A stretch of DNA of 64,000 nucleotides from Simmondsia chinensis (lineage: Eukaryota; Streptophyta; Magnoliopsida; Caryophyllales; Simmondsiaceae). Location of the stretch: assembly GCA_018398585.1 (NCBI GenBank), contig JAGTTD010000001.1, forward strand, positions 3,722,501 through 3,786,500. The letters run 5' to 3'. Under the pieces are notes generated by a model that saw only the letters and a program-made list of their open reading frames with translations, made no database searches and had not been told where the DNA came from. The position numbers were made by a program, and so were the translations under genes. Shown here in pieces: positions 6,982-62,100 of the stretch. Positions within the stretch are counted from its first letter, which is position 1, and each line of letters starts with the position of its first letter.

Positions 6982-7257
6982 AAGAAGAGTTTTACTATAC
7001 TATAACAACAACAGACTCAATGCCTCAAGGGCTTATGTAGGGTCTGGAAGGGGTGGATGTACGCAGCCTTACCTCCTTCAAGGTGTAATCCTAACGAAAG
7101 ACTATTTTCGAGGACCCCCAACCTTATAGGGTTGGCAATACAAGGACTTCCCAGGAGATCACCTATCCTGATACTACTCTTGCTCAAGCACGCTTAACTT
7201 CAGAATTCTAATGAGATCCGGTGCCTTAGTGCCAGGTACAAGAAGAGTTTTACTATA
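6982..7257 (-). mobile_element. 5S-headed SINE copy 1 with 18-bp target duplication
   Basis: A perfect 18-bp direct repeat, AAGAAGAGTTTTACTATA, lies at 6982-6999 and 7240-7257. The element between them (7000-7239) is in minus orientation. Its 5' half matches plant 5S rRNA from about base 11 onward (CACCGGATC, AAGCGTGCTTGAGCAAGAG, GACTTCCCAGG on the opposite strand). Its 3' half is the tail shared with the RTE LINE at 19.4 kb (GCTGCGTACATCCACCCC) and ends in TGTTGTTGTT. The long target duplication and TTG tail show target-primed insertion. Confidence 0.85.
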
Positions 7258-7360: not shown

Positions 7361-8099
7361 TGTTGATGCAAATCAGTCTAAAGATCCGGCCTGTAGTCCT
7401 GAATCTTGACGACGCGTGATGGGAAGGAATAGGGTGCCTCTAAACCATTGATCGTACCCATCGATGCCGAATTAAAAGAGATCGGTTAAAACTCGTTACT
7501 TCTGCAAATACTCATGCAATAACCTAAAAAAGAAGCTAAGTATTTTTTATTGAACTCTTTTAAAATAAAAACTACAAAGACCAACTCAAGACAAAACAAT
7601 TCATTAGATTTATCAAATGATCAAAAGCCTCATAAAACAAACAACTAATAGCCTATTTATAGGCATTCCTTTAACGCTACTCTAATTGAACTCTATAAAA
7701 CAATTATATTCTAACTATAACTAAACTTAATATAATTCTAATATAATTGAAAAAATGCTAATCATAATTACATGATTTAATAAAGAAAACCTAACTAAAA
7801 CCCTATATAAAATTAAAGAACAACAACAACAACCGACCCAGTGCTTCAAGGGCTCCCGTGTGTGCAGGGTCTGGAGCTATATAAAATTGAACAAAATATA
7901 TAATTCTAATTAAACTATAAAATCCTTTGACTTTTTGTAGTTCGATCCGGGTCCCCAACGTCCTCTGGTCGAATTTCTCCATTTCTTTTCTTAATCGGAT
8001 TATCTCCATCCCTAGTTCCATCACGTGTACTTTTTCATTCAAAATAACTTTTATCGTTTATTTTGAGTTCCACCGTTAAAACTCATATGTGTAGCAGCA
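7361..8099 (-). mobile_element. Probable solo LTR, minus orientation
   Basis: The block begins TGTTGATGCAAATC and ends GTGTAGCAGCA, that is TG...CA. On the minus strand it holds a strong LTR-type TATA box, CCTATAAATAGGC, near 7655. I found no clear 5-bp target duplication and no internal domain next to it. It contains a later tail-only insertion at 7803-7888. Confidence 0.4.
7803..7888 (-). mobile_element. Tail-only RTE/SINE insertion with 12-bp target duplication
   Basis: CTATATAAAATT occurs at 7803-7814 and 7877-7888. The 62 bases between them begin with AACAACAACAACAACC (the reverse of a TTG tail) and stop inside the shared tail at GGGTCTGGAG. This is a severely 5'-truncated copy of the RTE LINE or of its SINE. 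Confidence 0.75.
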
Positions 8100-13963: not shown

Positions 13964-14249
13964 ATTATATATAAATGAAGGGTTCATTTATCAGGTACCA
14001 AGATATTGGATCTTTTTAGAACTTCGAAGTTAAGCGTGCTTTGGCGAAGAGTAATACTAGGATGAGTGACCCCCTGGGAAGTCCTTATATACCCAATTCT
14101 ATAAGGTTGGGGGTCTTGAAAATAGCCTCTCGACAGGGTTACATCCTAAAGGGTAAGGCTGCGTACATCCACTCCTCCCATACCCCACTTATGCGGGACC
14201 CTTTGAGGCACTGAGTCTGTTGTTGTTGTTGTATATTATAGATAAATGA
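13964..14249 (+). mobile_element. 5S-headed SINE copy 2, full length, plus orientation
   Basis: A 15-bp direct repeat with one mismatch flanks it: ATTATATATAAATGA at 13964-13978 and ATTATAGATAAATGA at 14235-14249. The element (13979-14234, ~255 bp) starts GGGTTCATTT, matching the very start of 5S rRNA. It continues AAGTTAAGCGTGCTTTGGCG, GGATGAGTGACCCCCTGGGA and then the RTE-type tail ending TGTTGTTGTTGTTGTA. It is the only plus-oriented full copy here. Confidence 0.85.
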
Positions 14250-19282: not shown

Positions 19283-19422
19283 GTGAGAGCAACAACAACA
19301 ACAGATTCAGTGCCTCAAGGGCTCACGCATAAGCGGGATCTAAGAGAAGTAGGATGTATGCAGCCTTATCCCTTCAGGGTATTACCCCAACAAGAGGCTA
19401 TTTTCGAGGATTTTGTGAGAGC
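19283..19422 (-). mobile_element. Tail-only RTE/SINE insertion
   Basis: GTGAGAGC at 19283-19290 and 19415-19422 flanks a minus-oriented tail that starts AACAACAACAACAG and includes TGCAGCCTTATCCCTTCAGGG, stopping at TTTTCGAGGA. No 5S head is present. Together with the plus-oriented tail at ~22 kb it brackets the RTE LINE with inverted ~125-base ends, which is probably coincidental. Confidence 0.65.
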
Positions 19423-22109
19423 GCTTAAATGAACTCATAGGGAAGAAAGCGTGAGCAACACATCATCACGTACCAAAGCGTTGGGACAAGAACACAGATT
19501 GACTACATACTATTAAGGAAAGGGTATAAAGAGACTGCAGGGATTGCAAGGCTACCCCAGGAGAAGACCTGTCTACACAATATAGGATGCTATGGGTGGA
19601 TATAAAGGCCAAGAAGAGGGCCAAAAGAATTTGCAAATCCGCACGGACGCATACCTGTTGGAGGAATTTGAAAGCGGAGAAGTAAAAGGTATACAAGGAA
19701 AAAGTGGAGGCCAAGCTCGGGTAGGACTTTGAGGGAAATACAAACCAGATGTGGAACCAACTAGCCCAAAAGATTAGAGGACTGGCACGGGAATTTCTCG
19801 GCACGTCAAAGGGAAGGGTACCAAACAACTGAGAGTCCTGGTGGTGGTGCGAGGAGGTCCAATAGAAGATTAAGGCGAAACGAGTTTATTTCAAAGAGTG
19901 AGATCATAGCAGAGATGAGGATAAGTGACATCGGTATCTGCAAGCCAGATGAGAAACAAAGAGAGCAGTCAGAGAAGCACAATCAAGAGCTTATGAGGAT
20001 TTCTACAAAAGGCTGGAGACCAAGGAGGGTGCGAGGGACTTATATAGAATTACCAAAGCTAGAGAAAGGAAAACTAGGGACTTAGATAGAGTACAATGCA
20101 TAAGAGGGGAAGATGGATAGGTACTTGTGGATAGGCAACTAATTAAGGATAGGTGGAAAACGTACTTCCACGAGCTGTTCAACGAACCAGGAGGGAGGGA
20201 CAGAGATATCCTTAGGTGATCTTCAAACATCTGAGGAGCATCAAAACCATTGTGACTGTAGGCAAATTAGCCCCGAGGAAGTCAAGGAAGCCCTAAAATT
20301 CATGGGAAGGGGTAAAGCAGTTGGCCCATATGGCATACCCATAGAAGTATGGAAATGCCTTGGACAGAAGGGCGTCAGTTGGCTGACTAAACTATTTAAC
20401 CAAATCCTTCTGAGGGAGAATATGCCTGAGGAATAGAGGAAGAGCACATTGATTCCGATATATAAGAACAAAGGCGACATTCGGAGTTGCGTCAACTATT
20501 GGGGTATCAAACTAATGTACCACACTCTGAAGTTGTGGGAATGGGTCATAGAGAGGAGGTTAAGGCAACAGACAGAGGTGTCCGAGAACCAATTTGGATT
20601 TATGCCCAGGAGATCAATAATAGAAGCCATCCACATCCTAAGGCGGACGATAGAGCACTACAGGGAGAGACAAAAGGACCTTCACATGGTCCTTTGGAAT
20701 GCATATGATACAGTGCCAAGGGATGTCCTTTGTAGAGTTTTGGACAGGAAAGGCATCCCTGTGCCATACATCCGAGCCATTAGAGACATGTGTGAGGAGG
20801 CACAGACTATGGTGCGTACAGTGGACGGGGAGATATACGCATTCTCGATAACAGTAGGAGTACACCAAGGGTCTGTTTTGAGCCCCTATTTGTTCATTCT
20901 GGTTATGGACGAGCTCACTAGGCACATCCAGGAATATGTAACTTGGTGCATGCTTTTTGCAGATCACATAGTGTTGGTGGGGGAGTCGCGGGAAGAGGTA
21001 AATGAGAAGCTGGAACTGTGGAGAGGGGTACTAGAGTCGAAGGGCTTATGACTAAGCAGAGCCAAGACCGAGGACATGGAACTCAAGTTCGATCCCTCCA
21101 CCAAGCCTAGCCGGGAAGACATCAAGATTGGATCTGAGGCCATAGCGAAGAAGGAGAGCTTCAGGTACTTGGGGTCCATAATACAACACAATGGCGAAGT
21201 TGACGAGGATGTCAACAATCGGATTAAAGCGGGATGGCATAAGTGGAGGATGGCCTCTGCAGTACTTTATTATAAAAAGTTCCCCTTGAAGCTAAAGGGA
21301 AGATACTATAAGACGGTTGTGAGGCCAGCCATAACATATGGGGCGGAGTGCAGGGCGATGAAACAATAGCACATACAGAAGATGAAGGTGGTGGAGATGC
21401 GAATGCTGAGGCGAATGTGCGGACACACAAGGAAGGATAGGATCAGAAACGACGTCTTAAGGGGAAAATTGGGCGCAGCCTCCATTGAAGATAAATTGAG
21501 GGAGCAACGTTTGAGGTGGTTCGAACATGTTAGAAGGAGACCGGAAAATGCTCCAGTACGGAGATGCAAACAACCCCATACTACACTAGGCAGGAGAGGA
21601 AGAGGCAGGCCAAAGAAGAGATGGCTGGAGACGATCCGACAGAACCTTACCCACCTAAACCTTCGGGAGGAGATGGCCTTAGATAGGGCCCAATGGAGGG
21701 CTAGCATAGGGGTAATAGATGCTCTAGTTGAAGTAGGGTAGTCTAGCTTACTAGTGCTAGGCCTTGACATCCTCTTGGCGCACATAGGTTGTGTACTTGC
21801 TCTCATGAGCTGCTATTTGCCTACTTATCTTTTGATTTCTGCTTGATGTGGCTCGTTTTGAGTTTGAGCTTTGAGTTTGTTGCTTTGCTCTCTGTGTGTT
21901 TTGCCCTACTCATGCTTTGATGCTCCCCTACTGTCAGGTCACATGCTCTATGCTACGGACCAGCTTTTCAGGCTGGGGGTCCTCGGAAACAGCCTCTCTT
22001 CAGGGTAGCCCCCTGAAGGGGGAATACTGCGTACATCTACCCCCCAGACCCTGCTTTTGTGGGAGCCCTTGGAGACACTGGGTTTGTTGTTGTTGTTTGT
22101 TGTTGCTAA
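19423..22109 (+). mobile_element. RTE-clade LINE, 5'-truncated and decayed
   Basis: Plus-strand non-LTR retrotransposon. The 5' part keeps the end of the AP endonuclease (TRTQIDYILLRKGYKE near 19485). Reverse transcriptase runs ~20300-21051: IPIYKNKGDIRSC, NQFGFMPRRSIIEAI, GVHQGSVLSPYLF and the catalytic box as CMLFADH. The C-terminal region runs 21076-21741: ESFRYLGSIIQHNGEVDEDV, RIKAGWHKWR, MLRRMCGHTRKDR, GRRGRGRPKKRW. These phrases identify the plant RTE LINE clade. It carries several stops and frameshifts, and the FADD box is FADH, so it is inactive. Its 3' end (21965-22109) is the same tail found on the 5S-headed SINEs and ends in TTGTTGTTG repeats. Confidence 0.85.
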
Positions 22110-23256: not shown

Positions 23257-23425
23257 GGGGGTGAATGTACGCAACTTTCCCCCTTCAGGGTGTTATCCTG
23301 AAGCAAGGCTGTTTCCGAGAACCCTCAATCTAAGAGGTGCAATATGAGGACTTTCGTCACCCGTCTTGGTACTAATCTTACCCAAGCACCCTTAACTTCG
23401 GAGTTCTAATGGGATCCAGTGACCA
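23257..23425 (-). mobile_element. 5S-headed SINE copy 3, lacks the TTG end
   Basis: Minus orientation. The right part is the 5S-derived head (opposite strand: GGATCCCATTAGAACTCCGA, AAGTTAAGGGTGCTTGGGTA). The left part is the shared tail up to GTACATTCACCCCCC. The terminal ~45 bases with the TTG repeats are replaced by the AT microsatellite. Confidence 0.75.
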
Positions 23426-24936: not shown

Positions 24937-25662
24937 ATCCCCCACAAAGGATACAAGCGAAACAAAAAGAAAGGAATAGACTGGGCAAAGGGAGTTCGGT
25001 TTTTCAGCGCCGATGTCTTACGACTTGAATCGTCACTTAGTGTAACCCAAGTTTAGGACCAACATCTTGCAAGGTGACTTTCGTCTCGAACCTCACAAGG
25101 GGTTGTATAGTCTTCCACTTGGACACATACCAAACTCCAAATCTTGGCAACTCCGGCAGTTTGGCCCGTTTAATCGGCCATGCGCTCGTCCTGGATGTTC
25201 ATAGGTGCTCTAGAAGGCAAGTCTTAATCCTTCATAGGGAGCGGCCAGACTCCCACACCTATATAGGTGGATCCCATCAAGTGTGTGTTACCGCACACCA
25301 CCAAACATATGGATATGGGTCCATTAAGAGCTAAAGCTCAACCTTAACCTTGGTAACATACAGACAGTGTCCTGCCATGTGCAAGTCGTGCTCACACCGC
25401 CAACATACGGCATTGGACCCGTCTCCAAACAGCGTCCGTCATGTGCAAGTCATGCTTACACCGCCAACACACGGCATTGGACCCATCTCCAAACAGCGTC
25501 CGTCATGTGCAAGTCATGCTTACACCGCCAACACACGGCATTGGACCCGTCTCCGCACTGTCACATCATAGGGAGGGACAATATAAAACACAGTGCATAT
25601 CTTGAATGAAACTATGACTTTTCACATTGAACCTGATAAGCGCAGGTTGGATACATCATAGT
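24937..25662 (-). repeat. Copia 3' untranslated region with three ~64-bp tandem repeats
   Basis: Between the pol stop and the 3' LTR lie three tandem units beginning at about 25365, 25430 and 25494. Each contains CATGTGCAAGTC, CACCGCCAACA and CGGCATTGGACCC. The unit is longer than a microsatellite and highly conserved between copies 2 and 3. The rest of the region encodes nothing recognisable. Confidence 0.7.
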
Positions 25663-28600
25663 TTATTCGTGTACAGACTTCAGTCCCATCCCCCTCGATG
25701 TTTCTACAATTATTTTACGACAAAGGCCTTTTGTCAATGGATCCGCAAGATTCTTTTCAGACTTTACATAGTCTAGTGATATCACTCCACTCTCTAGTAG
25801 ATCTTTCACGATCTTATGCCTGAGACGAATGTGTCTCCTTTTGCCATTGTAAACCTTGTTCTTAGCCACAGCGATTGCAGCTTGACTATCACAGTGAAGC
25901 GACACTAATGGAGCTGGATGCCCCCACAATGGCATGTCTCCCAGTAGACTTCTTAGCCACTCGGCTTCATGACCTGCCAACTCAAGAGCAATAAACTCAG
26001 ATTCCATAGTAGACGTGGCAGTACAAGATTGCTTAGATGATTTCCAGGATATAGCACCTTTAGCTAGTGTGAACACATATCCACTAGTGGAATTAATCTC
26101 ATCATTATCAGACACCCAATTGGCATCATAATATCCTTCTAATACAGCGGGAAACTTCCTATAATGAAGCCCCCAATCCATGGTTCCTTTCAAATATTTA
26201 AGCAATCTTTTTAACGCATTCCAATGCTCTTGATTAGGATTATGTGTGTATCTACTGAGTCTACTTACAGCATATGCAATATCAGGTCTAGTGTAATTCA
26301 TTAGAAACATAACACTACCAATTATTTTGGCATACTCAAATTGGCACATAGCAACACCTTTATGTTTAGTTAAATATACACTGAGATCATAAGGTGTTCT
26401 AACAGGATCCGTATTGATCATATTGAACTTCCTAAGTATCTTCTCAACGTAGTGAGACTGGTTTAGGCTTATGCCTTCTGAAGTTTTCACAATTTTAACT
26501 CCTAAGATCACGCCTGCCTCACCCATATCTTTCATTTCAAACTTAGAGCATAGAAAGTTTTTCGTCTCAATGACAACATTCAAGTCTGTGCCAAATATCA
26601 GCATATCACAACATATAGACAAATTATTACACATCCATTTGAATCACACTTAGAGTACACACACGAATCACCATCGTTTACAAGGAAATTATTAGCTACT
26701 AACGTGCTGTTAAACTTCTCATGCCATTGTTTAGGTACCTGTTTGAGACCATACAAAGATTTTACAAGTTTACAAACTTTATTTTCATTACCAGGAACCA
26801 CAAAACCCTCAGGTTGTTTCATGTAAATCTCTTCGTCTAGGTCACCATTAAGAAATGCTGTTTTAACATCCATTTGATGCACTACTAAATCATGGACAGA
26901 CGCAAGGGCGATCCAAGCTCAAATCATGGCGATTTTAGCAACAGGTGAATAAGTATCAAAATAATCTAACCCCTGTTTCTGGGTATAACCCTTAGCCACT
27001 AACCTCGCCTTGAACTTGTCTATTGTCCCATCAGCCTTTATTTTCTTTCTAAAGACCCACTTATAACCTATTGGCTTACAACCTCCTGGAAGGTCTACCA
27101 ATTCCCATGTATGGTTACCTAGAATCGATTCTAGTTCGCTATTAATGACTTCTTTCCAAAAAGTAGAGTCAATTGACCTTATAGCCTCATCATAGGTTTT
27201 AGGGTCTTCTTCTAACATATAGACGTTCGCAATATCTTCATTTACGAAGTTATCTTCTGATAGGAAAGTGGTTACAAAGTCAGGTCCAAAGTTGGTTTCT
27301 TTTCTAGCTCTTTTACTCCTACGAATTTCAGGAGTGTCTATATCGTTAGTATTATCATGACTAGCAGTTACATTATTAGGAGGCAAGCTAGAAGGTTGTG
27401 CATCATTAGACTTCAAGGGAAATATATGTTCAAAGAATTCAGCATCTCTAGATTCCATGACACTACCACATGCATATGAATCATTAGATCCCTTAATTAA
27501 AAAACAATAAGCAGCACTGTGATGAGCATATCCGATAAAAATGGAATCGACAGTCTTAGGTCCGATTTTACTACGTTTAAAGTCAGGTAACCCAACCTTA
27601 GCTAGACACCCCCACACTTTTAAATATTTTAGATTAGGCGCATAACCTTTCCACATTTCGTATGGGGTTTTATCTAATTTCTTGTGAGGAACTCTATTAA
27701 GTACGTGACAAGTGGATAGTATAGCCTCCCCCCACATGTTGTCAGGTAGTGCAGAACTAATAAGCATAGCATTTATCATACCCTTTAAAGTTCTATTTTT
27801 CCTCTCTGCAACACCGTTAGACTGTGGGCAATAGGGTGGGCTTCGCTCATGTATTATTCCATTTTCCTCACAAAATCTTTCTAGAGAGGTTGGATCATAT
27901 GCTCCTCCTCTATCAGACCTAACTCTTTTAATTTTCCTTCCTAACTGATTTTCTACTTCAGCTTTGTATTTTAGAAACATTTCTTCTGGCTCATCTTTAG
28001 TGCTTAGGAGATATAGCATTAAGTATCTAGAGTAGTCATCTACAAAGGTTATGTCGTATCTTTTTCCTCCTCTACTCATTAGACTTTTATAGTCTCTTAA
28101 GTCAGTATGAACTAGTTCAAAAAGTTCAGTTTGTCTCTCAACAGACTTAAAGGGTTTTTTAGCATATTTAGCTTCTACACATACTTCACACTTATTAAAG
28201 TTGATATCACTGAAGTTAGGGATCATGTTCATTTTCTTAAGCCTTTTAATCGATTCAACATTTATATGTCCTAAGCGAGCATGCCATAATTCAAGGGACC
28301 CAACAATATAAGCAGAAGAGGTACTAGCAGTGTTATTCATGCAAACAACATCAAGAACAAACAGACCACCATTACAAAAACCCTTGCCCACATACTCTCC
28401 ATTCCTAGTCAGGACTAATTTGTCTGAGTCAAAGGATAATTTCAGCCCAGCTTTTATCAAGAGACTACCAGAAATTAAATTTCTAATAAAAACACATGCA
28501 GCACATTCGTTAAAGTAAGAAATTTTCCAGAAGTGAGTTTTAAAGAAACCTTCTCTTTTCCGAGGATTGGTGCAGCTGCAGAATTGCCCATAATGACCAC

Positions 28601-29575
28601 CTCTCCCTCGGACATCTTTTGGTATTCCTGGAACATGCTTCTGTTTGTGCAGATGTGCCTAGTAGCCCCGGTATCCACTATCCACTCAGTCAAGTTGTTG
28701 ACCAGGTTTACCTCTGAGACAACAGCTACAATGTTCTCTGCTTCTAAAAGGTGGGCTTTATTCTTCGAGTCTTTGGGCTTTTTACTTCTATAGTCTTTGG
28801 CCATATGTCCATGCTTTCCACAATGATAGCAGTCTCCGAGAAATTTGTTGTTCGGTTTTTGAATCTTTGCTCCATGCTTGAAATTTGGGCGATGCTTTTT
28901 TCCTTTGTTCTTGAACCTGTCTGCATTATTAGGTCTAGCTTCAACAATATTAGCTTTAGAATAGTCGGAGTATGCATACCCCCTGTCTTTAAGCCTATTT
29001 TCTTCTTCAATTTTTAAGTGGTTTATTAACTCCTCTAATGTCAGGTCCTTCTTTTTGTGCATGAGTAAATTTCGATAATCCTTCCAGGAGGGTCGAAGTT
29101 TTTCAATTAAGACATACGCTTGAGTTATTTCGCAAATTTTAAGGCCTTCTGACAATAGTGCAGTTACAATATTTTCATATTCATGGACTTGTTCAATTAT
29201 TGGTTTATTGTCCACGAATTTGAAATCTAACCACTTACTAACTGCATATTTCCTAGTACCCGCATCATCACCCCCATATTTTTTCAGTAGGGAATCCCAA
29301 ATTTCTTTTGCCGTACTTAATTTTACATAGATATCAAACAACCCATCACTCATATAATGCAGTAAATTTTCCCTACAGGTTCGGTCATCTGTGGTAAATT
29401 TTTCTTCATAAGCCTTCTTCTCGTTCTCATCTTCAAGAGTCTTTTTGTCATACAGCACATAATCAAGACATACTAACTATAGGAAAAATAGAATTTTTTG
29501 GGACCACCTCTTATAGTTCTTCCCTTCAAGAGTTTCAACTTTTGACATGTCGGGAACGGGTATTTTTGTTGCCAT
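25663..29575 (-). pseudogene. Copia gag-pol, disabled
   Basis: Starts MATKIPVPDMSKVETLEGKN at 29575. A TAG breaks gag near 29480. Gag continues to the zinc knuckle CYHCGKHGHMAKDY, in which the last Cys is Tyr. Protease core: WIVDTGATRHIC. After a frameshift near 28480 come the pre-integrase LWHARLGH, the integrase core (VHTDLRDYK, SPPYCPQSNGVAERKNR) and the RT start (KARLVAKGYTQKQGLDYF). Two stops lie near 26900, then VHQMDVKTAFLNGDLDEEIY. A lesion near 26620 destroys the YVDD box (the surviving text reads CDMLIFGTD). RNase H runs to the stop at 25663 ([14 protein letters not shown]). At least five lesions make it non-autonomous. Confidence 0.85.
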
Positions 29576-32640: not shown

Positions 32641-32646
32641 AAAATA

Positions 32647-32776
32647 AAAATAGCCCAGTGCCTCAAAAAAAAACTCTCGCTAAGGCAAAATTTAGGAAGG
32701 GTGATATATATACATTCTTACCCTTATAGGGTGCTCCCTTAAAGAAAGGTTATTTCCAAAAAGTCCTCAATTCTAA
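32647..32776 (-). mobile_element. Tail-only RTE/SINE copy, diverged
   Basis: Minus-oriented tail: AGCCCAGTGCCTCAA, CATTCTTACCCTTATAGGGTG, AAAGGTTATTTCC. No 5S head and no TTG repeat survive. Confidence 0.55.
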
Positions 32777-35908: not shown

Positions 35909-38900
35909 TGTCACGGGTCCGAACCGCTTCGCACCAGAGGCTTGTCATGACACTATCATGGTCCGGCCTGGGTATGCGCCAGCGCTTGTCATGAAATTGT
36001 GAAGGTGTTCGCCAGCGACTATGTCAGGACACTGTCTAGGTCCGGTACTTTTGCTTGTCTTGACACCCGATAGAGTTTAGGACATATTGGGTATTAATTC
36101 AAATAAAAGGACACGCTTGGAATTATTGTAATGTATTAGAATAATCTAGAATCACCTAGAAAAGCGGTAACTAACTCCGCTCCTCCCTTTCCTGCCTTTT
36201 TTGGATGATGGTTATTTCCTGCTCGTTTTTTGAATAAATGTAAGTAGTTATAAATAGAGGATATCATACTTGTAATAATCATCCAATCAAATATTAATGA
36301 AAGCTCTCAATTAACCCATCCCAATTCTATCTCTCTTTTCTCATCTAATTTCTTCTTTTCTTGTCTTAAATTCTCAATTTCTCTTAAACCTCTAAATTCA
36401 TTGATCATCTTTGATCCTTGAGTTTAGGTCACAAAATCAAGAACGTGACAAGATGGTATCAGAGCCATCTTCTGATCACGAAGCTGGCCATCACTCGTAG
36501 TACACGATCCGCTGCAACAATGTCAACATCTGGGGAGACGGCTGATTCTCATGTTCAACAAAGAATCAAGTCAGTGGAGAAACGTTTGGAGAGATTGGAG
36601 ATGATCTCTGAAAATCAAGTCAAGATTAGCAATGAGCTCAAGACATCCGTAGATTCTCAAGCCCGGATCACTGAGGATCTAAGGTCCACATTGGAAACAT
36701 TGAATGCCACCATGAGGAGGTTCACAATCAGCCAGGAAAAGTGACCAGCGGTAGAAATACCGGCGGCCACAGCCAATACCAACGCTGGAGGTTCTGGAAA
36801 TTACGTTCGTTTGGGAGCAAATGGCCTAATTCCTCCAACACCACCTCTGCCGGAGCTCAGGAACGACCGTGTTCCCTCAGGGACAAATGAAGATGGAGAG
36901 AACAGTGAATTCAATGGCAGTAACCGCACTTGGAGTTCGCATCACACGGCCAAACTTGATCCACCACGTTTTGATGGATCCAATCCAAGGGGCTAGACCA
37001 GGAGACTTCTCAAATACTTTCGTTGGTATCAAGTGTCAGCAGAGGAATGGGTGGAATTTGCTTCTAACCACTTACCAGAGCACGGGGACGCTTGGTATCA
37101 AGCTCTAGAGCTCAAAAATCCGGTGATCACTTGGCAATTTTTCATAGATGAGCTTTGTAAAAGGTTTGGCATTCGATCTCCTCATGACATTGTGGAGGAA
37201 TTCAGCAAAATTGTCCGAAACGGTACAGTGGAGGACTACATCATACGTTTTGAAGAACTTAAGAGCTGGATGTTGATTTATCATCCAACTCTAACGGAGG
37301 CCTACTTCATCTCCAGCTTTATCAGTGGCCTCAAGCCCGTGCTTTGAGCCTCAGTCAAAGCCGCACGTCCTAATGACTTAAGTTTGGCGTTTGAGCAAGC
37401 CAAGCTTCAAGACATTGCTATCGCTGAGATCCATGGCACTAAAGGGTCCGGACTGGCTATCGCTAGGCTTGGTTCCAGTGTCAAGACAATGTCCAGGGCA
37501 CAAGCCGGACCGTCTGTGTCCTTCCAGGGCCTAGCGCACTCCTACGGGTCCGTGTCAAGGCCCGGAGGGGCCAAGTCAGGCCCAGCTGCTTTCTCAGGCT
37601 ACGGCGCACCAAGGCGCTAGCCCGGTCAGCGTTACAAGTGCAGGGAGCGATATTTCCCCTGACATGTTTGCAAGCCCAAGCAACTCCAAAGCATGGAGGG
37701 GCAAGAAGAAGTGGAAGAGGAGCAGGAGGAAGAGGTCCAAGAGGAGGAAGAGGCTCAAGAGGAGGAAATAGGGGCGATGGAGATCTCCCTTAATGCTCTA
37801 TCAGGGCGCATTACTCATAACACCATGCGCCTAAGGGGATCCATCAAGAAACAGGCCGTTACGATCCTCATTGATAGTGGGAGCACTAATAGCTTCCTTG
37901 ATGCAGCCGTGGTCCGTGAGTTGAGGCTAGAGACAGTACCAACGTTGGTGATGACTGTCACCGTAGCTAACAGTGAGAGCCTAATGAGTTACCAAAAGTG
38001 CACGGGTGTCAATTGGAAGGTTCAAGGCACCACTTTCATTGATGACCTACGTGTGCTTGAGCTACGGGGTAGTGACATGGTTTTGGGAGTTGATTGGTTA
38101 CAACGTTATGGCCCTGTGACCATTGACTTCACAAACCTCCATTTCTCTTGCTTCAAGGAAGGCAAAGCAATACAGTTGCAAGGGACGGCTGAGCAAGCAT
38201 CCTTGCACTCCATTTCTGAGCGTGGCATCACTCGGTTCTTAAAGAAGCAAGCGAGGTGTGTCCTAGGCCATCTCTTTATGGCCACGGGAGTAGAAGAATC
38301 TGAAGTAGAGGTTCATCCGGACATAGCGCACCTGTTGCATTACTATGAGGATGTGTTTGACATTCCCAAAGGGCTGCCTCCACCTCGCACCCATGATCAT
38401 GGCATCCCTACGCTGCCAGAGGCCAAGCAGGTTAACATTAGGCCCTATCGGTACCCTCACAATCAAAAAGATGAGATTGAAAAGCAAGTAGAAGAGATGC
38501 TCAAGACCTTCATTATTCAGCCCAGCCGGAGCACTTTTGCTTCACCGGTTCTTTTGGTCAAGAAGAAGGACGGAACTTACCGCTTTTGTGTAGATTACCG
38601 TCAGCTCAATCAGATCACAATCAAGGATAAATTTCCTATTCTGGTTATTGATGACCTCTTGGATGAGTTCCAAGGTGCAGCGGTTTTCTCCAAAATAAAC
38701 CTCCGGGCCGGTTATCACCAAATCTGGGTTAGGAATGAAGATCGCCACAAGACAGTCTTCCGTACACACCAAGGGCATTATGAGTTCCGTGTCATGCCCT
38801 TTGGGCTCACAAATGCCCTTGCCACATTCCAAGCCCTAATGAACGAGGTTTTCGCCCCATTCCTAAGGAAGTTCGTTTTGGTATTCTTTGATGATATCTT

Positions 38901-41620
38901 GATATATAGCCCTGAGATGCGGGCGCACTTGAAACACCTGACATTGGTCATGGACACGCTCCGTGCCCATAAGTTGTACGCCAAACGCAGCAAATGCATG
39001 TTCAGACAGGACCATGTTGAGTACTTGGGACATATAATCTCACAAGAAGGTGTGGTCACTGATGCGGCAAGGATAGAGGCTGTGAGAGATTGGCCCGTGC
39101 CAACCAGTGTCATAAGCCTCCGTGGGTTCCTTGGTCTCACAGGATACTACCGGAAGTTCATCAAAGGGTACGGTACTATGAGCAAGCCCTTAACTAGTCT
39201 CCTCAAGAAGGGGGCCTTCCTATGGAACAATGCCGCTCAAGATGCCTTTGAGTCCTTGAAGTCAGCTATGATGACAGCGCCCGTGCTAGCACTGCCGGAC
39301 TTCAACGAACCATTCGTTTTGGAGACTAACGCATGTGATGTGGGAATTGGGGCCGTATTGACACAGAGAGGCAGACCTTTGGCTTATCTCAGCCAGGCAC
39401 TCAACCCACACCACTTGGGCCTGTCAGTATATGAGAAGGAGCTCATGGCCATGATCATGGCCGTCCAAAAATGGAGGCACTACTTGCTAGACAATCATTT
39501 CATCATCAAGACTGATCATTCTAGCTTGCGCCACCTCCTGGACCAACGCATCAGCACCAGGCTACAGCAAAAAGGGGTCTCCAAGTTGATGGGGCTTAGC
39601 TATAGTATCCAATATCGCAAGGGTGCTGAGAACCGTGCCGCAGATGCCTTGTCAAGGCGTAGTGAAGGTCCGGACCAAGCAGCGCTGTCCCAGCTAACCA
39701 CGGTCACTCCACTTTGGGTGCGTGAGGTTAGCGATAGCTATGAAGGTGTTTCCCAAGCCTCCCAACTCCTTGCCCAGCTAGCCCTTGATCCCAAGGGGCA
39801 ACCTCCGTTTTCTCTTCAGCAAGGAATCATCCAGTACAAGGGGCGCATCTATGTGGGTGAAAGCGCAGCAGTAAGAGACAAGGTCTTGCACGTCCTTCAT
39901 GATTCTCCAGTGGGGGGACACTCTAGGATGACTGGCACTTTGATGAGGATCAAGAGCATGTTCTATTGGCCACGGCTCAAAGACAGTGTTCAAGATTGGG
40001 TGCGCAGCTGTGATGTATGTCAGCGCACCAAGGGGGAACATGTGCCCTACCCCAGCTTACTTCAGCCGCTGCCTGTGCCAGAGTAGGCCTGAGCTAGCGT
40101 CAACTTGGATTTCATTGAAGGCCTTCTAAGGTCTCAAGGGAAAGACGTGATCCTTGTTGTAGTAGACCGGTTCATCAAGTACGCTCATTTCTTGACCTTG
40201 GCGCATCCCTACACAGCAACACGTGTGGCCCATCTCTTCTTGGACCACATATACCATTTACATGGGCTGCCAAAGGATATAGTATCAGATAGGGACTCTT
40301 CATTTCCAAGCTTGTTCTGGAAAGAGCTCATGTGCCTTGCTGGAGTGGACTTGCACATGAGTAGCTCTTATCACCCACAATCAGATGGGCAAACGGAAAG
40401 AGTTAATCAATGCCTTGAGAACTACCTCTGTGCCATGGCTCTCCTCAAGCCCAAGCTATGGGCGCAATGGATGCCTTTAGCTGAATTCTGGTACAATACC
40501 AATTATCACTCCTCATTGAAGACTTCACCGTTCCGGGCCTTGTATGGTTATGAGCCACGCCTCCTGGCTTGGGACATACCATGCCACTCCACATCCCTTG
40601 ATGTGGAGGACTTTGTCATAGAACGAGGCAATATGATCAACATCCTCAAAGAAAACTTGAAGGCAGCCCAACACCGCTACAAGCAAATGGCAGATTTGAA
40701 GAGGACTGAGCGCACATTTGAAGTAGGGGACATAGTGTACCTCAAACTTTAGCCTTACCGTCAGACTTCCTTGGCTCTAAGGAAGAATTTGAAGCTGGCA
40801 GCACGCTATTACGGACCATATCCAGTCTTAGCAAAGATTGGAACGGTTGCTTATAAGCTTGACTTACCAGAAGGGACCTACTTACCAGAAGGGACCTAGA
40901 TTCATCCAGTCTTTCATGTGTCCAGGCTTAAAAAGAAGAATGGGCAATGGGCACAAATCAGCAACGAGCTTCCACATTGTGACTTGGAAGGGGACCCTGA
41001 AGTGACGCCACAAGAAGTGCTCCAGCACTGCACCGTGACAAGAGTTAAGAAGAAGATTGCTCAAGTATTGATTCGTTGGAAGAATCTAGCATATGAGACT
41101 TGGGAGGATTAGACCTTCATTCGCAAACAGTTCCCTCACTTCAAACCTTGAGGACAAGGATCGCTTCATGGGGGAGGCAATGTCACGGGTCCGCACCGGT
41201 TCGCACCGGAGGCTTGTCATGACACTGTCATGGTCCGGCCCGGGTATGCACCAGTGCTTGTCATGACATTGTGAAGGTCCGCCAGCGACTATGTCAGGAC
41301 ACTGTCTAGGTCTGGTACTTTTGCTTGTCTTGACACCCGATAGAGTTTAAGACATATTGGGTATTAATTCAAACAAAAGAACACGCTTGGAATTATTGTA
41401 ATGTAATAGAATAATCTAGAATCACCTAGAACAAGCGGTAACTAACTCCGCTCCTCCCTTTCCGGCCTTTTTTGGATGACGGTTATTTCTCGCTCTTTTT
41501 TTGAATAAATGTAAGTAGTTATAAATAGAGGAGATCATACTTGTAATAATCATCGAATCAAATATTAATGAAAGCTCTCAATTAACCCGTCTCAATTCTA
41601 TCTCTCTTTTTTTATCTTAA
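35909..41620 (+). mobile_element. Ty3/gypsy chromovirus, 3' LTR truncated
   Basis: 5' LTR 35909-36450 (542 bp, TGTCACGGGTCC to GAACGTGACA, TATA box TTATAAATAGAGG near 36250). Primer site TGGTATCAGAGC at 36454-36465. Polypurine TGGGGGAGGCAA precedes the 3' LTR, which starts at 41181. The 3' LTR lacks roughly the last 100 bases, breaking off near 41620 in CTCTCTTTTTTTATC. TTAAAC lies before the 5' LTR and after the break. The coding order protease, RT, RNase H, integrase, chromodomain marks a chromovirus. Its ~5.7 kb size suggests the Reina clade, as inference. Confidence 0.88.
36520..41149 (+). pseudogene. Gypsy gag-pol with chromodomain, disabled
   Basis: Gag starts at 36520 (MSTSGETADSHVQQ) with a coiled coil (KSVEKRLERLEM), then a retrotransposon gag core (EEWVEFASNHLPEHGDAWYQ). 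Stops interrupt it near 36745, 36996, 37347 and 37620. Protease core ILIDSGSTNSF is near 37875. RT is intact in 37693-40086, with VFFDDILIYS near 38885. RNase H has VLETNACDVG, where an Asp is expected in place of Asn. The integrase zinc finger CDVCQRTK is followed by a TAG near 40086. The integrase core is 40105-40752 (VSDRDSSF, YHPQSDGQTERVNQ). A C-terminal chromodomain (VLIRWKNLAYETWED) lies at ~41010-41110. Several stops look like C-to-T changes (TGG to TAG, CAG to TAG). Confidence 0.85.
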
Positions 41621-41902
41621 ACTATCTTAACTAGGTCGAGTTTGAATGAGCCTACGTATAAGTTAGGCTTAGCTCAAGGCTCACTGAACAGGGTTCAAGC
41701 TGAACCAAGCTGAGCTCAAGTTGCTTCTTTTGAAAAGCTAAGTTTGAGCTTGAAATATCCAAATTCAACACCCTCCAACTTGAGCCCAAGCTAAACTAAA
41801 GATTCTTAATATATATATGAGTGACTGATGTTTGGAAAAATCATGAATATATCACCCGACATGTAGTATAGGTTATGCCCTTAGACCAATTTATTACCAA
41901 CA
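41621..41902. other. Degenerate GAGCTCAAG repeats continuing the Gypsy target
   Basis: Same word composition as 35640-35908 (GCTCAAGGCTCACTGAAC, CAAGCTGAGCTCAAG). No gene. Confidence 0.4.
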
Positions 41903-42040
41903 ACAACAATCCCAATGTTTCACGGGCTCTCGCTTGCGTAGGTTCGGGGGGGGGGGGGGGGGGGGGGGGGGGGTAGGATGCACGCAGCCTGACCCCATCA
42001 TGGTGAGACCCTGACGAGATGTTGTTTTCGAGGACAGACT
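41903..42040 (-). mobile_element. Tail-only RTE/SINE copy with a 28-base G run
   Basis: Minus orientation: AACAACAACAATCCCAATG, then a homopolymer of 28 G at 41946-41973 where other copies have GGTCTGGGGGGGTGG, then ATGCACGCAGCCTGACCCC and TTGTTTTCGAGGA. No 5S head. Confidence 0.65.
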
Positions 42041-43709: not shown

Positions 43710-43845
43710 TTTTACGACAACCAAGTGCCTCGAAGAGGATTCATGCCAATGCAAGGTTTAGGGAGAGTACGATATACGCAACCTTACCTCTATAGGAGAG
43801 TTGTACCCTGTAAAAAGGTTGTTTTCGAAGGATCCATAATTTAAT
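43710..43845 (-). mobile_element. Tail-only RTE/SINE copy, diverged
   Basis: Minus orientation: ACGACAACCAAGTGCCTCGAA, ATACGCAACCTTACCTCTAT and AAGGTTGTTTTCGAAGGA. No 5S head. Confidence 0.55.
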
Positions 43846-43979: not shown

Positions 43980-44262
43980 TTAAATGGGTATCTCATAAAA
44001 AAGCAAAGCAATATTTCTTGTATCCCAAGGACTCTCACCTAAGCAGGGTCTAAGGGGTGGATGTACACAGTCTTTCCCCTTCCGACACCCTGAAAAGAGG
44101 TTGTTTCTAAGAACCCCCAACCTAAGGAGTGTAATACGAGGACTTCTCAGGAGGTCACCCATCTTGGTATTACTCTCGCTCAATCACACTTAACTTCGGA
44201 GTTCTAATGGGATCCAGTGTTTGCATGTTGGTACCTTCTTAGGTTAAATGGGTATCGCATAA
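43980..44262 (-). mobile_element. 5S-headed SINE copy 4 with 19-bp target duplication
   Basis: TTAAATGGGTATCTCATAA at 43980-43998 and TTAAATGGGTATCGCATAA at 44244-44262 (one mismatch). The element between is minus-oriented. Its head is 5S-like (opposite strand: GGATCCCATTAGAACTCCGA, AGGATGGGTGACCTCCTGA, AAGTCCTCGTATTACACTCC) and its tail is the shared RTE type (GTGTACATCCACCCCTTAG). The TTG end is eroded. Confidence 0.85.
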
Positions 44263-45595: not shown

Positions 45596-45742
45596 CAGCT
45601 TACTTAGGAACATAAGGAACATACTCGGTGCCTCAAGGGCTCTCGTCTACGCACGGTCTGGGGGGGCGGATGTACTCAGCCTTCCCCCTTCAGGGTGTTA
45701 ACCTGAAGAGAAGTTGTTTCCCAATGCCCAAACAGCTTACTT
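45596..45742 (-). mobile_element. Tail-only RTE/SINE insertion with 10-bp target duplication
   Basis: CAGCTTACTT at 45596-45605 and 45733-45742. Between them: CTCGGTGCCTCAAGGGCTC, GTCTGGGGGGGCGGATGTAC, CCTTCAGGGTGTTAACCTGA, stopping at GTTGTTTCCC. No 5S part. Confidence 0.7.
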
Positions 45743-45908: not shown

Positions 45909-46173
45909 TAACAACTCCGAATAAAACAACAACAGACCTAGTGCCTTAAGGGCTCCTGCCTAAGCGTGTATACAGCCTTACCCCTTCAGGGTGTAAGCCT
46001 GTCGAGAGACTGTTTTCAAGGACCCCCAACCTTATAGGGTTGACAATACAAGAACTTCCCAGGAGGTCATCCATCCTGGTATTACTCTTGTCCAAACACG
46101 CTTAACTTTTGAGTTCTAATGGGATCCGGTGCATAAGTGCTTAATAAATGAATCCTAACAACTCCGAATAAAA
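45909..46173 (-). mobile_element. 5S-headed SINE copy 5, full length, 18-bp perfect target duplication
   Basis: TAACAACTCCGAATAAAA occurs at 45909-45926 and 46156-46173. The element is 45927-46155 (229 bp), minus orientation. Its first bases (GGATTCATTTATTAAGCACT) align to the very start of 5S rRNA. The internal promoter regions follow: AGTTAAGCGTGTTTGGAC (A box) and AGGATGGATGACCTCCTGGG (intermediate element and C box). Then come the RTE-type tail (AAACAGTCTCTCGACAGG, AAGGCTGTATACACGC) and TGTTGTTG. This is the clearest copy in the window. Confidence 0.9.
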
Positions 46174-51906: not shown

Positions 51907-52141
51907 ATTGTTGTAATGATGTGGGCCGGAAGCAATGTAACAAGGCCGTTTCGAGTCGCAGGGGCAGCTGCGTTGGCGCCCGCCATAGACAAAGGACTAA
52001 GAAGGATCTAGAAGACACTAAACTTGCCAGATCTGGTAAATGCATTTGCACTGGTGGTGGGCATAGTTGCTACATTGTGTTTCACAGTGGTTGGTCTTCT
52101 CATCCTTTCTAGATGGGGAAAATAGATGTCCTAGTTCTATA

Positions 52142-52285
52142 AATTTTTAGGGTTGGGACCTTTTGGAAACAGCCTCTCTATAGGATGGCACTCTGTAGGG
52201 GTAAGACTGTATACATCTTAGCCCTCTACAGAGAAATCTTAACGGGAGCCTCTTTAAGGCATTGGGTGGTGGTGGTTGTTGTACT
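52142..52285 (+). mobile_element. Tail-only RTE/SINE copy just after the membrane-protein stop
   Basis: Plus orientation: TAGGGTTGGGACCTTTTGGA, AAACAGCCTCTCTATAGGA, GTAAGACTGTATACATC and a GGTGGTGGTTGTTGT end. It lies within the expected 3' UTR of the 48.5-52.1 kb gene. Confidence 0.65.
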
Positions 52286-60400: not shown

Positions 60401-61991
60401 TACTAATACGAGAACTACAGAGACTTATGTATTCTAACCATTTCACTTGAGACATGGTCATTTTTGTGAAGCAGAGAAGTATTACTATACAAAAAGATTG
60501 ACTCCAAACTCACCAAGAGATCACCAGAATCACTTGTAACCTATAAGATAGGTAAAACTGACATTTATCAAGTTTGGTCATGCATTCTTCAAGAGGTATG
60601 ACCAACATCGTCGAAGCTAGTACTCCTTTAATTCAAATAATGACAATTTCGCAGAACACAGTACAAAATTGAACTTCTCATATCTTATATCTTTGATAGA
60701 CTGACCACAAAAAGAACTTGCACCATCTACTAAGGCTGACTTCTTCTCCTTTCTTTTCTCATTTAGTTAAATGAAACAAATGCCATTCATAAAGGATTGC
60801 ATTGATGATTCTCAATGTTCATCACTGTTGTACTATGAAAACTATATTGAGCAAAGAAAGCAATGAAAAATACATCAAAGATTCAAAATCAGTACCCACA
60901 TACCTAGTTTCACTAAGGTAAGAGCCACTTCTACTCGGAGAGCTAGGCGGAGAACTCTGCCTTGCAACCTTCTTTGGAAACAAAGCACTTCTACTCTTAA
61001 TTTCATCCTCATCCTCGTCATCATCCTCGTCACCACTAATACCCTCTTCGCTATCTTCATCACCCATCAAATCTATAAAACTAGAAACCGATTTTTCTCC
61101 CCTCCTTGCGAAATCACTGTTCTCATTCTGCGACCCAAATGCAACTCGTCCCACACCCCCATTCTTCACGCTTCCTACCCTCCTATCTCCTCGAACCCAC
61201 CTATCCTTTGCCTCAAACCCCTTTTCTCCCCGCTTCGATCCCTGTCTCACTCCACCTTTCTTTCTACCCAAAGTCCACCCACTATCATCCTCATCTTCTT
61301 CTTCCTCTGATTCATTGCCAAATCTTCTACTATTCCGCACCCCAAAAGCGTGGTCTCCTCTCCTAATCCCTCCCCTAATCGGACCTTTCTTTCTACTAAA
61401 ACCCTGACCCCCATCATCCTCCTCCTCAAATCTCCTTCCAAACCCAGAACTCTTCTTCCCCAAATTACTCAATTTCCGCGAACCCGGCCTCTCCATTTGC
61501 CCCATTTCATCACCGCCGCCACCACTAAATTCCCTCTCTCCCCTCCTCCTCGAACCACCCCCATCTTCCCCTAATTCACCCAAACCCCTAACCCTAACCC
61601 CATCCCTACCCCTCTTTTTCCCTTTCCCATACTCACTCTCCTCCTCATCCTCCGTAAACACCCCCGACTTATACGAACTCGTCCTCAACCCACTAACCCA
61701 ATCACTCAGCTCATCCTCATCCTCAATCAAACTCTTCGACGCCCGAATTTCACCCTCACGCGGGTTCCGGTCGGGTTTGGCCCGAAAAGGGCGGGTCGAA
61801 AAGGAACGAGGGAGATGCGAATTGGGCGGCGAAAACCCTAAACCTAAGTACTTGAGCTTGAAGGGGAAGACCCGGCAGAATACGGGCGGGGCCCGAGATG
61901 GGTGGCGGGTTGAATTGAGTATCATTTGGTGGGAACGGCTGACCGGGAGAGATGACCGGAGGAGAGTTGTCGGAGGGAGTTTTACCGGCAT
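54406..61991 (-). CDS. RH26: DEAD-box ATP-dependent RNA helicase, RH26-type, 830 aa
   Basis: Ten minus-strand exons join in phase: 61991-60904, 60263-60157, 59536-59481, 58813-58589, 57925-57719, 57634-57548, 57454-57359, 56621-56406, 55705-55523, 54633-54406. Start [20 protein letters not shown], rich in Ser/Arg with few acids, suits a mitochondrial or plastid presequence. Residues ~80-340 are low-complexity, Gly/Arg/Ser-rich with acidic runs ([10 protein letters not shown]). The helicase core has Q motif Q389, motif I AKTGTGKT 406-413, Ia PTREL 446-450, Ib TPGR 497-500, II DEAD 524-527, III SAT 555-557, V TSDVSARG 676-683 and [10 protein letters not shown] 706-713. All are intact, so ATP-driven RNA unwinding is expected. 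Length and long N-terminus match Arabidopsis RH26 rather than the shorter RH25 and RH31. The RNA target is unknown. Introns hold MITE and SINE fragments. Confidence 0.92.
54974..55253. mobile_element. hAT-like MITE in the last helicase intron (family F)
   Basis: TGTTTGGCCAAACTTCTTTT on the left, ACAGTTTGGCCAAATAAGCCC on the right; the arms are inverted (AGAAGTC.../...CTTCTGAAAAAG). Non-coding, inside intron 54634-55522. Confidence 0.55.
55368..55470 (-). mobile_element. Au-like tRNA-derived SINE fragment in a helicase intron
   Basis: Minus strand: GGTGTAACCGGTGAGGTGG (A-box region), ATGAGTTCAAATCATAG (B box), then AAACGGTCTCTCTAC and GGCAGGGTC. This order matches the plant Au SINE, whose AAACAGCCTCT part also resembles the tail of the 5S-headed SINEs. 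Confidence 0.5.
57152..57225. repeat. (GA)n microsatellite in a helicase intron
   Basis: GAGAGA runs with GGGAGAGGGAGAGAGGG interruptions between exons 8 and 7. The flanking sequence from 56740 is made of degenerate AGCTGGGC/GAGCACGAG words. Confidence 0.6.
59765..59912 (+). mobile_element. tRNA-like SINE fragment with poly(A) in helicase intron 2
   Basis: GTTGTTGGATTTGATATAATG (A-box-like) and GGTCTTAGATTCGAAGTTC (B-box-like), followed by ~60 bases and a run of about 20 A. Plus orientation, opposite to the gene. Confidence 0.4.
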
Positions 61992-62100
61992 TAGATGGTG
62001 GATTTTGGGTAGGGTTTGAGATTGGGATATTTGTATGAGGGTTTAAGCAGGGTTTTGCACTTCTATAGTGTGGATGCCGATTCCTGTTTCTTTTGGCTGG
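61992..62100 (-). promoter_or_regulatory. Helicase 5' leader with telo-box elements
   Basis: Three AAACCCT-type words on the minus strand within 50 bases of the ATG: 62010-62017 (AAACCCTA), ~62038-62046 and ~62049-62056. Telo-boxes are frequent in plant genes for translation and ribosome assembly. This context fits an organelle RNA helicase. No TATA box seen. Confidence 0.4.

Follow-up and report, generated by a model that had tools for sequence, protein, structure and literature searches.

A probable SINE3-type family with a 5S rRNA-derived head and an RTE-type LINE tail in Simmondsia chinensis

How does a 64,000-nucleotide stretch of the Simmondsia chinensis genome (hereafter the window) come to hold five copies of an element of about 250 bp in which a 5S rRNA-derived head is joined to the 3' end of an RTE-type LINE? 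The sequence evidence points with high confidence to a dispersed SINE3-type family that would be mobilised by a plant RTE-type LINE and would have been born by a template jump from LINE RNA to 5S rRNA.

Copies in the window and their likely partner LINE

The initial annotation had placed 5S-headed copies at five sites of the window, and all five were found to bear the element. BLAST with a general plant 5S sequence as query detected 5S sequence at each of them, and three also exceeded the curated cut-off of the Rfam family RF00001, on the minus strand (E 5.6e-11 to 1.8e-8). The four target duplications reported with these copies proved right in length and mismatches. Copies and duplications were as follows.

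45927-46155, minus strand: SINE copy of subfamily A, starting at the first head base and with a TTG end; RF00001 at 46038-46159
45909-45926 and 46156-46173: target duplication of this copy, 18 bp, perfect
7000-7239, minus strand: SINE copy of subfamily A, about 15 nt missing at the 5' end; RF00001 at 7130-7243
6982-6999 and 7240-7257: target duplication of this copy, 18 bp, perfect
13979-14234, plus strand: SINE copy of subfamily A
13964-13978 and 14235-14249: target duplication of this copy, 15 bp, one mismatch
43999-44243, minus strand: SINE copy of subfamily B1, 5S 3' end directly joined to LINE sequence, TTGCTTT-type end; RF00001 at 44126-44238
43980-43998 and 44244-44262: target duplication of this copy, 19 bp, one mismatch
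23257-23425, minus strand: SINE copy of subfamily B1, incomplete on its 3' side

No target duplication was found for the copy at 23257-23425; this copy breaks off within the tail, next to an AT microsatellite. A tail of TTG repeats had been ascribed to all five copies, which holds for those at 7000, 13979 and 45927 but not for those at 43999 and 23257.

The tail had been attributed to an RTE-type LINE, and it indeed matched the 3' end of a LINE lying in the same window.

About 19430-22107, plus strand: decayed RTE-type LINE, the likely partner; start approximate, from three-frame translation
21957-22097, plus strand: 3' end of this LINE

The LINE contains an RVT_1 domain at 20437-21048 (E 1.3e-21), followed by a C-terminal part up to the stop codon at 21738-21740, a 3' UTR and a TTG end. 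The reverse transcriptase piece had 619 relatives at E ≤ 0.001; among the 120 listed, identities were 49-67%, and the named relatives came mostly from plants, a few others bearing bacterial or archaeal labels. The nearest solved structures by sequence in the PDB were those of R2 (1.1e-9) and LINE-1 ORF2p (3.1e-8), and the reverse transcriptase of this LINE is of the non-LTR kind. We labelled the LINE as RTE-type because of its TTG end, given that in the accessible part of Ohshima's text (PMC3747384) plant L1 LINEs end mostly in poly(A), while a TTG end marks plant RTE elements.

The last 128 bp of the LINE (21970-22097) were 86% identical to positions 125-250 of the SINE consensus. When the LINE 3' end was used as query, the 40 matches scored (best 40 of 4,718 candidates) all showed 93-100% identity. 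Homology continues upstream of the tail at loci L065, L072, L078, L079 and L080, which shows that the tail is the LINE's own end. Judged from these matches, the LINE at about 19430-22107 is the likely partner of the SINE family.

The tail also occurred without a head in the window.

45609-45729, minus strand: truncated tail-only copy with a subfamily C tail and a duplication
19289-19410, minus strand: truncated tail-only copy with a duplication
41894-42035, minus strand: tail-only copy whose C run spans 28 bases
7819-7881, minus strand: strongly truncated tail-only copy with a duplication

In several SINE and LINE tails the C run was expanded to about 20-35 bases (window 41946-41973; L049 near 3640; L051 near 8590; L059 near 900; L071 near 8570; L072 near 8290), which suggests slippage at this site of the tail. 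Tail-only matches were also considered as tRNA-headed siblings of the family and rejected as such: several were LINE ends or truncated copies, and no tRNA head was seen by eye in those inspected. A more distant tail-only group (window 32646-32761, 43717-43835 and 52125-52282; L059:8056-8156; L072:5004-5121) formed a clade of five rows with support 96/88, and may correspond to LINEs of an older subfamily or to a different SINE whose tail is related.

Head, subfamilies and proposed origin

A covariance search for true 5S genes, in which 47 of 47 scored matches (best 47 of 51,838 candidates) exceeded the cut-off, located two tandem arrays on one contig (C8) and a single unit on another (C29). The arrays on C8, at 4.686-4.702 Mb and 6.397-6.414 Mb, are in opposite orientation; their units are spaced about 437 bases apart in one array and for the most part about 421 in the other. 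Four 5S genes were retrieved; they start with GGGTGCGATC (GCGTGCGATC in one) and end with TTGCACCCC, followed by a T-run. Alignment to these genes bore out the earlier claim that the head follows 5S rRNA, with identities of 95.2% for consensus A (over 5S positions 12-114), 92.6% for consensus B1 (12-119) and 95.0% for consensus C (26-105), each over the aligned part. The internal control region is present in the 5S-derived head.

The motifs CATTAG and CCGAAG were common to the SINE and all four retrieved 5S genes, at sites where plant 5S rRNA in general has CATCAG and CCGCAG, which fits a source of the head in this lineage. In the heads of all three consensuses GTACCA stands where the four genes have GTACTA, best read from the alignment as a shared SINE change; single copies vary at this site (T at L071:8398). 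All three consensus heads likewise have CTCCTGG, against CTCTTGG in the four genes; CTCCTGG is also found in plant 5S in general and may be the ancestral state.

Junction type and tail end set three subfamilies, whose consensuses were built from 14 (A), 6 (B1) and 3 (C) copies.

Subfamily A: junction GTGTTGC-CAACCCTATAAGGTTGGGGGTCC, TTG end
Subfamily B1: junction GTGTTGCACCCC-TCAGGTTGGGGGTTC, TTGCTTT-type end
Subfamily C: junction GTCCTC-ACCCTCAGGTTGGGGGCAC, TATGTTCC-type end

In the direction from 5S to tail, subfamily A measures about 250 bp and consists of the 5S-like head, then CCAACCCTATAAGGTTGGGGGTCC and a GC-rich tail with TTG repeats at its end; in subfamily B1 the complete 5S 3' end joins the LINE sequence directly. 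The five copies had been described as one family; they stand as a family, but one of three subfamilies, in which the copies at 43999 and 23257 belong to the older B1 and have a different junction. Between the consensuses, 12-15 of the 27 sites at 5S 1-27 differed, a stretch in which the alignment is uncertain, as compared with 0-1 of the 48 sites in the internal control region at 50-97. Difference counts against B1 at 5S 108-120 are inflated by gap placement, and B1 aligns through base 119. Selection on the promoter in source copies would give such a near-constant region 50-97 next to a variable region 1-27.

The subfamilies raise the question of whether A and B1/C go back to separate jumps from RTE RNA to 5S rRNA, or whether one head exchanged its tail. 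We regard such an origin as a serious possibility, though not the one we would favor. The junction points and tail ends differ between subfamilies, and in a tail tree of 42 rows B1, C and one tail-only copy grouped apart from A (99/94). Constraining all SINE tails to a joint clade cost 36 log-likelihood units, but with an AU p of 0.06 a single clade was not rejected. Moreover, GTACCA is shared by all three consensus heads and absent from 4/4 retrieved 5S genes, and this common change favors one head. Tails may also have been exchanged. Somewhat more doubtful is a wider scenario of a plant SINE3 lineage with a single 5S head that would have taken up RTE LINE tails at least two times near the tail hairpin, reached tens of thousands of copies and be of the kind proposed as donor of the Cassandra promoter.

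For the preferred reading, a family born by template jump, we propose the following course. The last ~130 nt of the LINE RNA would have been copied by the LINE enzyme in target-primed reverse transcription; the enzyme would then have jumped to the 3' end of 5S rRNA and copied on toward its first base. The product would be a 5S gene body with a LINE tail in place of the T-run terminator, and the junction of B1, with its full 5S 3' end joined to LINE sequence, is the expected product of such a jump. Pol III and TFIIIA would then use the internal 5S promoter, with transcription running on past the tail as far as a T-run. Recognition of the tail by the LINE protein would be followed by nicking of a new site and insertion of a copy with a target duplication. 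Consensus A contains no TTTT and the T-run of the 5S gene is gone, so that Pol III would presumably continue to a T-run in the flank; the T-rich end repeats of B1 and C could, by their composition, serve as Pol III terminator.

Truncated copies at L058, L068 and L082 (the last read by eye) start in the same short stretch at the junction. Given that only 2 of the 8 tail-only copies with a duplication in the window and the coordinate-placed sample described below start there, pausing or stopping of the reverse transcriptase at the junction is just a lead. For the tail stem, evaluated on 24 hand-chosen rows, pairing reached 86.9% (shuffles 84.8%, 8/500) and the covariation score 0.205 (shuffles 0.176, 10/500), but pairs changed on both sides showed no excess over shuffles (308/500); covariation in the tail stem is weak. 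The folding energy of the whole element was ordinary (z -0.68). Both results count against the preferred reading.

Relation to known elements

By its head, tail and insertion features, as read from the sequence, the family belongs with SINE3: it combines a 5S head containing the internal control region, a tail shared with a LINE and target duplications of variable length. By analogy, it may work like Ped-1 or HaSE3. Ped-1, a SINE of the springhare, likewise joins a 5S rRNA head to the tail of an RTE-type LINE (BovB) according to the portion of PMC3747384 available; it is a rodent element, whereas the SINE described here comes from a plant, its tail is that of a plant LINE and, in subfamily A, the tail ends in TTG. 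HaSE3 and other lepidopteran SINE3 elements also have a 5S head, and RTE-clade mobilisation has been proposed for them (excerpts of PMC3272025 and PMC7245038), as has template switching for the origin of HaSE3 (PMC3272025). HaSE3, however, is an insect element with a body that the excerpts describe as shared with a tRNA-derived SINE, whereas here the 5S sequence meets the LINE end and no body was seen.

The tobacco TS SINE resembles our family in that its ~100 last bases match an RTE LINE, both being TTG-ended, but its head is tRNA-derived with A and B boxes, whereas the head here is 5S (PMC3747384, same portion). An RTE LINE tail with a TTG end, as in TS, was found in subfamily A and not in B1 or C. 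Identification of the family as a tRNA-headed SINE of the TS or Angio-SINE type was rejected since the head is 5S, and ARAGORN detected no tRNA gene in the window. The SINE tail may resemble the Angio-SINE 3' domain (37 bp Angio-domain). The Angio-SINE superfamily (Seibt 2020, as cited in a review) comprises tRNA-derived plant SINEs sharing a 3' domain. Cassandra TRIMs are, like our family, plant retroelements with a 5S-derived Pol III promoter (excerpts of PMC10853983 and PMC10886601); they are LTR elements, whereas the unit here is non-LTR with 5S at its 5' end.

A search of open-access PMC text found 5S-headed SINEs of vertebrates, insects and a fungus (PMC5063351), and, among the texts retrieved, none of a plant. 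The AnnoSINE classification allows a 5S class, with no plant example named in the portion of text available (PMC8825457). The initial suggestion that the family may be undescribed is upheld within the open-access text searched, where no such plant family was named; on this literature, novelty of a plant 5S-headed family is probable. That it has already been described, for instance among the SINE3 entries of Repbase or in a paper behind subscription, is rather unlikely yet worth bearing in mind, as Repbase, SINEBase and most subscription papers lay beyond the search and automated repeat libraries would catch so abundant a family. Against it stand reviews which, in the parts accessible, place SINE3 in vertebrates and some insects (PMC7245038), give 5S-type promoter acquisition by SINEs as known in animals (PMC10853983) and plant SINEs as tRNA-derived (PMC9033089).

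From an abundant 5S-headed family in a plant it would follow that plant SINEs, too, can be driven by a Pol III promoter of the 5S type. Insertion of a SINE3 into an LTR has been speculated to be the origin of the Cassandra promoter (PMC10886601, in excerpt), and the present family would be a plant member of the class so invoked; it looks much younger than Cassandra and need not be the donor of that promoter. With the SINE, its likely partner LINE and the 5S genes in one assembled genome, a birth by template jump is directly testable.

Dispersal across the genome

The S. chinensis assembly (831,394,711 bases in 35 contigs) was searched with the copy at 45927-46155. The 40 matches scored (best 40 of 6,220 first-look candidates) all covered most of the query; the 39 best matches besides the query copy itself showed 79-84% identity and covered at least 208 of its 229 bases. 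These 39 were retrieved with their flanks and, being best matches, are biased to subfamily A. A junction differing between copies had been named as evidence against a single element: the A junction was identical in all 39, while two further junction types occur elsewhere. A direct repeat scoring 9 or more was present at both ends of 30 of 44 copies (the 39 retrieved and the five of the window), as compared with 0.7% of 865 mismatched-flank pairs, in a test whose flank window missed the duplication of the copy at 43999-44243. Most duplications were longer than 10 bp and enclosed single units of ~250 bp. Non-CpG divergence from the consensus was 2.7-12.9% in the retrieved copies and 8.6-23.2% in those of the window.

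A coordinate-placed sample comprised 25 segments on 19 contigs, each 10 kb long and set at a round coordinate, 250 kb in all. It contained nine heads (the head-alone query being run on the first 200 kb only), and the tail was present in 9/9, contrary to the concern that heads might mostly occur without it. This count suggests ~30,000 copies in 831 Mb (Poisson limits on nine: about 14,000-57,000). Window and sample together gave 39 profile matches, 14 with a head and 25 tail-only, the latter including LINE copies and truncated pieces. Of the 14 head-bearing copies, two end within the tail, and 8 are flanked by a duplication with a score of at least 10, versus 0.5% of 384 controls. Transposon-like frames were among the longest frames in the sampled loci.

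Two other identities were rejected on the junction, duplication and head evidence. That the copies are 5S pseudogenes or stray 5S units adjoining an unrelated repeat is hardly credible: the head is clearly 5S and true 5S arrays are present in the genome, but every sampled head has the tail, one junction recurs throughout the retrieved best matches and the duplications bracket head and tail as a single unit. Target duplications of Cassandra are short and fixed, at 5 bp. Solo LTRs or pieces of a Cassandra-type TRIM are just as improbable, even though Cassandra is the known plant element with 5S sequence in its LTR (excerpts of PMC10886601 and PMC10853983), since here a unit flanked by long duplications opens with 5S, from its first base or close to it, and 5S does not lie near the middle of an LTR as in Cassandra (PMC10853983), and the rest of the unit is a LINE 3' end with TTG.

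No match was returned from plasmids, IMG/VR or prokaryote genomes, in keeping with the plant nature of the element. Two groups of reading frames elsewhere in the window resemble broken-up LTR polyproteins: those at 25663-29476 (minus strand), in several pieces, one of Copia type, and those at 37663-40752 (plus strand), in two pieces, one of Ty3 type. At 60822-62042 (minus strand) a cellular gene has a long open frame with 21 weak relatives, at a guess the initial exon of an RNA helicase gene. A 64 bp unit is repeated in three tandem copies at 25364-25554.
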